IMG/VR virus record: IMGVR_UViG_3300022200_009154
Span: 1-24,806 of that record
Reading direction: 5' to 3' (one strand)
DNA length: 24,806 nucleotides
Origin: a virus
Made by a program: the position numbers and the translations under genes. The notes under the pieces were generated by a model that saw nothing but the letters and a program-made list of their open reading frames with translations, did not search any database and was not told where the DNA came from. Every line of letters begins with the position of its first letter. Position 1 is the stretch's first letter. Positions 21,974 through 24,185 of the stretch are shown piece after piece.

Positions 21974-22215
21974 TGCCAAAACTCATTAGCCAAAAAAACC
22001 TTAGAAAACCAACTGCTAATGGGTATGTACTTTCTAGCAGCACTGTTGGAGTTCAGTCTTGGGTAGATAACAGGTCTGTAGGGATAAACAGTGGAGGATC
22101 CATAATAGGAACCGCTAGTACAATTAATATCGCAAATAAAAATACTGTTACAGTTTCTTCAGGAATTGCAACTGTAACACAATTGACTGATCCTCTTACG
22201 ATCATAGGTTTATGA
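21973..22215 (+). CDS. Small probable virion protein, 80 residues
   Basis: Starts at the ATG in TGATG, one base overlapping the previous gene, and its TGA overlaps the next ATG by four bases (ATGA), so translation is coupled on both sides. It begins MPKLISQKNLRKPTANGYVL and continues 'SSSTVGVQSWVDNRSVGINS', with further beta-type Ser/Thr/Val/Ile repeats. The basic N-terminus followed by a beta tail, and motifs such as 'VGIN' and 'TVTVSSGIATVT', resemble pieces of the fibre-like protein at 18223. It may be a short fibre tip or a remnant of a longer fibre gene. Function unknown. Confidence 0.6.
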   Translation: MPKLISQKNLRKPTANGYVLSSSTVGVQSWVDNRSVGINSGGSIIGTASTINIANKNTVTVSSGIATVTQLTDPLTIIGL

Positions 22216-22367
22216 AGACTTTTAAAGAATTTCAAGAGTCTTGGACTAATAAATATAAAAAGAGTATTGATTGCTCAAATCCGAAAGGATTCTCTCAGAA
22301 AGCACATTGTGCTGGACGTAAAAAAAGAGCAAGAGGTGAACAAACTAAATCAAAACCAGTTGAATGA
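22212..22367 (+). CDS. 51-residue basic protein with a capsid-targeting-like N-terminus
   Basis: ATG at 22212 overlaps the previous stop (ATGA) and its own stop overlaps the next ATG (ATGA), so it sits in a chain of coupled genes. The N-terminus MKTFKEFQES closely resembles the T4 capsid-targeting sequence MKTYQEFIAE, which directs internal proteins into the prohead and is cleaved after Glu by the gp21 protease. The rest contains 'IDCSNPKGFSQKAHCAGRKK', with two Cys and a run of Lys/Arg, a motif I recall in many marine phage proteins of unknown function. A small, head-packaged, DNA-binding protein is the best guess, not proven. Confidence 0.65.
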   Translation: MKTFKEFQESWTNKYKKSIDCSNPKGFSQKAHCAGRKKRARGEQTKSKPVE

Positions 22368-23854
22368 AAAAGAACGGTCGCTGCCCAGAGGGACAATACT
22401 ACTGCTACACCAATAAGGAATGCAAACCCATTCCAAAGGGGTTTATGGTGGATCCTCAAGGTATGCTCCGTAAAGAAAATGGTGCTTCAATTGATGAGGC
22501 AAGTAAAAGTGGAGATTCATCACTTCGTGATTGGTTTAGTAAAAGTAAATCATCAGACGGGAAACCTGGTTGGGTTCAACTGGGTGGTAAATATGCTGGA
22601 AAACCTTGTGCTAAGCAACCAGGTCAAACCACTAAACCAAAGTGTGGTTCCAGTAAAATGAAGCGTGCTCTCTCCAAAGATGAGGAGGAAAGAGCATTTC
22701 GTCGTAAGAACAGTCAAGATCCAAATCCAGACAGAAGAGGGAAGGCAATTAACGTGGCTACTGAAGAAACGAAAAAAGATCATGAATATTCAATGGCACG
22801 TTCTGAACTCAAAACTGTCAAAAATGCTGCTAAAAGACTTGAAAAGAAAATGGGCAAAAAAGGAGAAGGAAACCTTGAAGCTTGGGTTCAGTCTAAAATT
22901 ACAAAGGCAGCAGATTATATTGATACTGCAGCAGACTACGTGACAAACGAAGCAGCGGGAGAGAAAGACGCTTGCTATCATAAAGTAAAGTCACGCTATA
23001 AGGTTTGGCCAAGTGCATATGCGTCAGGAGCACTGGTCAAATGCCGCAAAAAAGGTGCATCTAATTGGGGAAATTCAACGAAGAAAGAAGAATTTTCTGA
23101 TTGGAGAGAAGAATTAGAACTTGATGAGAAGTGTTGGAAAGGGTATGAGAAGAAGGGCATGAAGACTATGTTTGGTAAGAGATATCCAAACTGTGTCAAA
23201 AAAGAAGAGTCTTGTCCAATTTGTAATTGTGATCCTTGCCAATGTCTTGAAGGAACAATAAATGAATCCATTAGAATGCCAACAAGAGTTGGAAATATTG
23301 TTTTGGTTCATTTAACTTTTAGGGGAAAATATTATGCAATGAAAATGTTTTTCCCCCATGCGAAAGTACCTTCTAGAAAAGACGTTCAAAATGAAATAGT
23401 CAAAGTATATCCTGGCGCAAAACTACAAAGTTTTCAAGTATCCGAGTATGAACCAGGACAACCATTCCTCCAAGTCTCAGAAGGAAGAGACGAAAACGGA
23501 GAAGGAATTGAGGAAAATATTGGATATGACAATCAAACATCAACAGAATTGCCTAAGAATGCCAAAAGGTCATCAGTAGATGAAGACTGGCAATCAGTAA
23601 ATCGTAAAGACAAAACTGATGGATTAAGCCCAGCTGCTGTAAAAGCATATCGCCGCGAAAATCCAGGTTCCAAACTGAAAACTGCTGTTACCAAAAAACC
23701 ATCAGAACTTAAAGCAGGGTCTAAAGATGCAAAACGTCGTAAGTCATTCTGCTCAAGAATGAGTGGAATGAAAAAGAGATTGACCTCTGCTAAAACTGCA
23801 AGAGACCCAGATTCAAGAATTAATAAAGCCCTTCGTCGTTGGAACTGTAATTAA
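22364..23854 (+). CDS. Cys-rich basic patchwork protein of marine phages, 496 residues
   Basis: Composed of separate motifs in order: Cys cluster with Cys 7, 14 and 20; 'GWVQLGGKYAGKPCAKQPGQ' at 69-88, similar to what I remember as DUF5872-type sequences; helical 'SMARSELKTVKNAAKRLEKK' at 143-162 and 'GEGNLEAWVQSKITKAADYI' at 167-186; 'ACYHKVKSRYKVWPSAYASG' at 203-222; 'LDEKCWKGYEKKGMKTMFGK' at 253-272; a zinc-ribbon-like CPICNCDPCQC at 284-294; a 'YxMK...YPGA' domain at 305-360; and a C-terminal basic domain 419-496 ('GLSPAAVKAYRRENPGSKLK' to 'INKALRRWNC') that I recall as DUF6321. Lys and Arg are abundant, with no membrane segment. It overlaps the 51-residue gene by four bases. Role unknown; DNA binding or head packaging is inferred from charge and neighbours. 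Confidence 0.75.
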   Translation: MKKNGRCPEGQYYCYTNKECKPIPKGFMVDPQGMLRKENGASIDEASKSGDSSLRDWFSKSKSSDGKPGWVQLGGKYAGKPCAKQPGQTTKPKCGSSKMKRALSKDEEERAFRRKNSQDPNPDRRGKAINVATEETKKDHEYSMARSELKTVKNAAKRLEKKMGKKGEGNLEAWVQSKITKAADYIDTAADYVTNEAAGEKDACYHKVKSRYKVWPSAYASGALVKCRKKGASNWGNSTKKEEFSDWREELELDEKCWKGYEKKGMKTMFGKRYPNCVKKEESCPICNCDPCQCLEGTINESIRMPTRVGNIVLVHLTFRGKYYAMKMFFPHAKVPSRKDVQNEIVKVYPGAKLQSFQVSEYEPGQPFLQVSEGRDENGEGIEENIGYDNQTSTELPKNAKRSSVDEDWQSVNRKDKTDGLSPAAVKAYRRENPGSKLKTAVTKKPSELKAGSKDAKRRKSFCSRMSGMKKRLTSAKTARDPDSRINKALRRWNCN

Positions 23855-23855
23855 A

Positions 23856-24185
23856 ATGAAATCTTTTCAACAATTCATCTCAGAAAGCGTCACTATTCAT
23901 GGTGACTTTAATGGAACTCTCAATGTAGGCGGAGATCCAGTTCAACAAAAGGTTGATGAACAAAACCAATACATTGCAGATGTAGTTTGGATGGGAAGTA
24001 TATATAGAATGAAAATTGAAAGGAAAGAGTCCTATAGACTTCCAACAACACAAGAACTAGCAGAGCAACTTCAAGGAGAATATCCTGGGGCGATCGTTCA
24101 ACGAATTTATCCAGTAGAACCAAAACCAATTGTAAAAATAGCAGATGTAAAGAGATATCATCCAGGCAAATTAGAGTGGGTATAA
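23856..24185 (+). CDS. 109-residue protein: capsid-targeting-like N-terminus plus 'YPGA' domain
   Basis: ATG is two bases after the previous stop. The N-terminus MKSFQQFISES matches the T4 capsid-targeting sequence MKTYQEFIAE in its spacing of Met, Lys, aromatic, Phe, Ile and Glu, with an IxE site where gp21-type protease would cut. Residues 38-85 ('ADVVWMGSIYRMKIE' through 'LPTTQELAEQLQGEYPGAIV') share the pattern G..Y.MK.......P....l...i...YPGA with residues 309-352 of the 496-residue protein next door, so the two genes share a domain. Likely a small virion or internal head protein; function unknown. Confidence 0.65.
   Translation: MKSFQQFISESVTIHGDFNGTLNVGGDPVQQKVDEQNQYIADVVWMGSIYRMKIERKESYRLPTTQELAEQLQGEYPGAIVQRIYPVEPKPIVKIADVKRYHPGKLEWV

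Follow-up and report, generated by a model that had tools for sequence, protein, structure and literature searches.

Introduction

In phage T4 the first ten residues of internal protein IPIII are enough for entry into the head, and within this leader targeting depends mainly on residues 4 and 7 and processing on residues 8 and 10; the protease gp21 cuts after L/I-x-E, and a leader with Asp at position 10 is targeted and stays unprocessed (PMC9026906). The same protease cuts gp22, gp67 and gp68 down to small peptides (PMC9958956). For another group, the polyvalent proteins encoded by phages and conjugative elements, it has been proposed that they accompany the DNA and undergo processing; these are multi-domain proteins (PMC5512222). 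In cyanophages, virion proteomes repeatedly hold enzymes (NMNAT-like proteins, kinases, a SAM lyase), which their authors could not assign to either cargo or contamination. Within the open-access literature we found no paper that links a capsid-targeting sequence (CTS) or a head polyprotein to cyanophages, and no mention of DUF6321 (PF19846), a family found in the locus described here.

Results and Discussion

Gene layout

The stretch of DNA analysed, which we call the window (24.8 kb, the whole record), represents part of the genome of a T4-like cyanophage (Kyanoviridae). From left to right it carries baseplate, neck, small terminase subunit and tail fibre genes and two small ORFs, followed by ORF51, ORF496 and ORF109 and then by a virion structural protein gene. 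The coordinates originally given for these three ORFs are all correct:

22212..22367, + strand: ORF51, leader MKTFKEFQES plus a basic module with two Cys (SIDCSNPKGFSQKAHCAGRKKR)
22212..22241, + strand: CTS-like leader of ORF51, residues 1–10, with F4 and F7; Q8 and S10 replace Ile/Leu and Glu, and the Glu is residue 9
22364..23854, + strand: ORF496, a patchwork of small modules (phrog_727) with a C-terminal DUF6321; proposed gp21-cut precursor
23856..24185, + strand: ORF109, a complete CTS-like leader and an acidic-neutral body (phrog_1742)
23856..23885, + strand: leader of ORF109, MKSFQQFISE, with a predicted cut after Glu10

The start of ORF496 overlaps the end of ORF51 by four bases (ATGA), and there is also a four-base overlap between ORF51 and the end of an 80-aa ORF upstream. 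As the ORFs overlap or nearly abut, they form one tightly packed gene run, and the three adjacent genes, two for leader proteins and one for a chain of modules, probably encode head cargo.

Modules and junctions of ORF496

ORF496 consists of small modules in a row, many of them with at least two Cys; the protein ends in DUF6321 and has a net charge of +38 and 16 Cys in total. DUF6321 is the only Pfam family above the cut-off (7.9e-15), and the profile match is to phrog_727 (2.2e-135); ORF109 matches phrog_1742 (6.8e-31). Both proteins belong to these families by score, and the families carry no function. Because the AlphaFold model of ORF496 is of moderate confidence (mean pLDDT 60), we used it to locate linkers only, which have low predicted confidence.

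Module combinations vary among the 86 patchwork ORFs compared. For eight module types we took the 16 residues upstream, reduced these contexts to below 50% identity, and scored a site when it lay within the last ten residues, each context also being shuffled with its composition kept. The motif [LIVM]-x-E is present in 76 of the 98 non-redundant contexts, compared with about 27 in the shuffles. Most modules show this excess strongly; it is less marked for DACY (9/14), the weakest well-sampled junction, and for FVTLP (3/5). That ORF496 lacks the N-terminal signal and overlaps ORF51 by four bases was correctly predicted; to this we add that it has gp21-consensus sites at module boundaries, listed here with a segment related to ORF109:

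22490..22498, + strand: gp21-consensus site IDE45-A, preceding the LRDWF module
23120..23128, + strand: gp21-consensus site LDE255-K, preceding the CWxGY module
23258..23266, + strand: gp21-consensus site INE301-S, preceding the RMP (ORF109-like) module
23474..23482, + strand: gp21-consensus site VSE373-G, where the ORF109-like module ends
23576..23584, + strand: gp21-consensus site VDE407-D, preceding the DUF6321 module
23252..23491, + strand: segment homologous to the ORF109 body (hhalign probability 89%, E 2.3e-6)

Two weaker boundary sites, VATE and VTNE, have V at P4 instead of P3.

An alternative explanation for these sites takes ORF496 to be a structural protein of the ordinary multi-domain kind, which might belong to the tail in view of the adjoining tail-fibre and neck genes, and supposes that hydrophobic-x-E triplets arise from linkers that are rich in Glu and that may go along when modules move as units. 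Several features of the junctions argue against this. The P3 residue is L, I, V or M for 45% of junction Glu as opposed to 18% of Glu elsewhere; the number of sites in composition-kept shuffles stays far below that observed even among contexts of less than 50% identity; and at many junctions the site is kept where the upstream modules differ. We consider an ordinary structural role unlikely.

The protease itself, which the original prediction had proposed looking for, is encoded downstream in the closest relative contig, which carries gp21, gp22 and gp23 together with a leader-bearing NMNAT; the window stops before that region. Bellamy and S-SM2 have gp21 as well. In all five phages inspected the gp23 propeptide ends in LxE followed by A, which fits the same specificity as the junction sites; no solved cyanophage capsid that might give the mature gp23 N-terminus is listed, the entries being T4-type only. 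The predicted sites in ORF496 resemble the L/I-x-E type sites of gp21-type processing (T4 gp22 and gp23, and the extensive cleavage in phiKZ and SPN3US), and T4 gp22, like head proteins of giant phages, also has several sites in one protein. Unlike in those systems, the predicted sites of ORF496 mark the boundaries of many small shuffled modules.

Some modules are found both inside patchwork proteins and on their own. A model of the ORF109 body also has matches among patchwork proteins, namely those of S-CAM9 and S-SCSM1; the ORF51 module is contained in the patchwork proteins of S-CAM9 and others; and in podophages HTVC115P, P-SCSP1d and HTVC022P, DUF6321 is a separate gene of 72–84 aa that adjoins the capsid gene. 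A precursor that is cut between modules would predict the same modules fused and separate, although domain shuffling alone could do so too. In these podophages, which lack a T4-type head, other tiny and very basic proteins adjoin the capsid gene along with DUF6321.

We read ORF496 as a precursor of head cargo, for which we infer cleavage by gp21 and injection. Like the polyvalent proteins (PMC5512222) it has multiple domains, and in our proposal it would be processed and would accompany the DNA; unlike them, its modules are tiny and without a recognised enzyme, effector or peptidase domain, and the putative cuts would be made in trans by gp21.

Leaders of ORF109 and ORF51

Both starts had been predicted to match the T4 signal MKTYQEFIAE, with the Glu that precedes the gp21 cut. 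For ORF109 this is borne out in full: alone of the two it has the complete T4 capsid-targeting sequence (F4, F7, I8, E10), with determinants at positions 4, 7, 8 and 10 as in T4 IPI, IPII and IPIII. Among homologues gathered with the body alone, the leader being left out of the query, F/Y4, F7, I/L/M8 and E10 are kept in 25 of 25. ORF51 agrees at the targeting residues F4 and F7 only, as the processing residues are absent (Gln8, with Glu at position 9), and its approximately 27 homologues have the same pattern, F4 and F7 included. Since the T4 Asp10 leader is targeted and unprocessed, ORF51 may likewise be targeted and uncut. The remainder of both proteins had been described as basic and Cys-containing, which is true of ORF51 (net +9, 2 Cys) and does not apply to ORF109, whose mature part has a net charge of -1 and no Cys.

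The best PDB fold match of ORF109 is T7 Gp2, an RNA polymerase inhibitor (probability 0.97, but E 0.19); a profile comparison gave a probability of 0.2% and we rejected this kinship. For DUF6321 and ORF109, no PDB sequence relatives were found beyond chance-level RPA matches.

The leader in other marine phages

The leader can be written M-K-x-[F/Y/L]-x-x-F-[I/L/M]-x-E; the search pattern was derived from T4 and this locus, and its position 3 was freed after MKN leaders were seen in relatives. At the ATG starts of 11 marine relatives (part only of the S-CREM2 genome was taken in) there are 17 leaders of the strict form compared with 0.39 expected from shuffled N-termini; for T4 the corresponding numbers are 3 and 0.04. 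The 17 span approximately eight protein families and are not independent, with about seven in the NMNAT/cytidylyltransferase family and three ORF109 homologues, and one of them, MKWFEDFVFE of Bellamy, probably arose by chance. The pattern used at first, MK[ST][FY]xxF, was narrower and matches nothing in S-CREM2, whose leaders appear only when position 3 is freed. No strict leader was found in P-TIM68, S-PM2 or HTVC008M, so that either some of these phages lack the system or the motif misses its leaders.

Two distant cyanophages encode a leader-bearing SAM lyase, P-TIM68 (L027:1501-1995; MKTYKEFIQD, outside the strict form) and S-CREM2 (L350:3837-5081; MKDFDSFLEE), the assignments having Pfam E-values of 3.6e-22 and 2.3e-19. 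These parallel the anti-restriction role of T4 IPI and, as SAM lyase is an anti-restriction type of enzyme, lend indirect support to the predicted disarming of host defences.

A module of about 40 residues, SDGHGxWxD, lies right behind a CTS-like leader in otherwise unrelated proteins: S-CREM2 gp12 (L350:7704-10313) and gp14 (L350:10579-12846, with two copies) and the S-SCSM1 NMNAT (L164:3820-5049). The likeness between these modules is supported by BLAST E-values of 2.6e-8 and 4.9e-8, and the module may be a second packaging element.

Leader proteins in virion proteomes

Mass spectrometry of S-CREM2 virions lists 52 proteins of 219 ORFs (PMC10665884). All four strict-leader ORFs are in this list (p 0.003), namely gp6, the SAM lyase; gp13, a small protein; gp14, a kinase with a GTG start; and gp154, a cytidylyltransferase. 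As the motif was widened after relatives had been seen, gp154 is not a blind match, while gp6, gp13 and gp14 are. With a relaxed motif, sought in the first 30 residues and with recognised structural proteins left out, six of seven ORFs are in the list (p 3e-5), the additions being gp12 (LRFASFMAEA) and gp136 (MQTFSMFFSE); three control motifs were negative in the same comparison. The annotation of gp12 as a CRISPR-associated Cas9 nuclease is doubtful, as the protein has no Pfam family match.

The S-SCSM1 NMNAT (MKSFLQFLKEA) was detected in the virion, and the relaxed motif picks out no extra genes in that phage. The NMNAT of S-SZBM1 (MRFRQFIIEA, one residue shorter and outside the strict form) was also detected, and a DUF6321 protein of the same phage with the leader MKTFKQYITEA was not among its 30 virion proteins; as an independent test of the strict motif S-SZBM1 gives 0 of 1. 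Pooling the three proteomes, five of seven strict leaders were detected (p 0.005), with a base rate for S-SCSM1 taken from the record, which labels 48 genes as virion, where the paper reports 45. That these phages have leaders of the capsid-targeting class is well supported by conserved residues and by the presence of the leader on virion-detected proteins.

Of the patchwork relatives of ORF496, S-SCSM1 ORF29 (SSCSM1_29) and S-CREM2 gp160 were detected in virions, and S-SZBM1 194 is not in the virion list. The ORF109 homologue is missing from the S-SCSM1 list, though proteins of 61–69 aa were detected there, and was not detected among the 30 proteins of S-SZBM1; this counts against delivery of ORF109 itself. 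The predicted head packing is in line with several leader proteins in other cyanophage virions; for ORF109 itself, packing and injection are putative.

The main rival explanation starts from these absences. In it the leader does direct proteins to the core, yet ORF109 and a large part of ORF496 would be core components that are degraded or lost in head maturation and are not delivered, which would explain why ORF109 homologues are unseen in virions. The fate of T4 gp22, gp67 and gp68 offers a precedent, and ORF496 is rich in xE sites. However, mature virions yielded both patchwork relatives, in two preparations, and several enzymes with leaders, and we consider that loss of the core components is a rather improbable account of the locus as a whole. 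That MKxFxxFxxE is simply an ordinary amphipathic N-terminus without targeting, its occurrence in virions reflecting coincidence or contamination, is very improbable, for although proteome-tested leaders are few (seven strict) and the original authors allow for carry-over of highly expressed proteins, the enrichment over approximately eight families, the agreement with mapped T4 determinants, and the S-CREM2 relaxed-motif and control results all argue against it.

Proposed explanation

The explanation we favour, to which we assign a probability of roughly 0.6, is that of head cargo loaded by a leader and processed by gp21, with ORF496 as a polyprotein-like precursor. A T4-type capsid-targeting leader would take non-structural proteins to the prohead core, where the gp21-family prohead protease would cut after [L/I/V/M]-x-E with loss of the leader. 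ORF496 would be an array of small modules, most of them basic and many containing Cys; some of these modules are also encoded on their own, by genes with a leader. Cutting by gp21 at the boundary sites would free the modules inside the head, and the freed modules could bind the packaged DNA and exit with it. The sequences show a conserved leader that recurs on unrelated proteins and coincides with published virion detection, an excess of sites at junctions, homology between modules, and gp21 in the closest relative. Targeting itself, like cleavage, module release, DNA binding and injection, is what we infer from these patterns.

As with the T4 internal proteins, one leader is found on unrelated bodies, and gp21 is present in the closest relative. 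In contrast to them, enzymes (NMNAT, kinase, SAM lyase) are among the cargo in relatives, the ORF109 body is not basic, ORF51 is without processing residues, and ORF109 homologues are undetected in virions.

More tentatively, and with the odds somewhat against it, there may be a general head-delivery code in which the leader, sometimes with SDGHGxWxD, loads unrelated enzymes (NMNAT, kinase, SAM lyase and the nuclease-annotated protein) as well as a gp21-cleaved polyprotein that frees Cys-containing basic modules. If so, the injected protein cargo of cyanophages would be predictable from sequence. Because it agrees with the targeting residues mapped in T4, the leader offers both a mechanism for the packaging of cyanophage proteins and a rule, readable from sequence, for which of them are packaged; the polyprotein reading, if true, would account for the build of a common and unexplained patchwork family of marine phages.

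Two further CTS-like strings were seen. SSCSM1_93 of S-SCSM1 (91626-91835), a basic virion-listed protein of 69 aa, has the string RTFKEFLEYIE at its C-terminus, and in T4 a 54-aa ORF on the minus strand (NC_000866.4, 19130-19101) that starts MKTFKEFIKED fits the strict leader.
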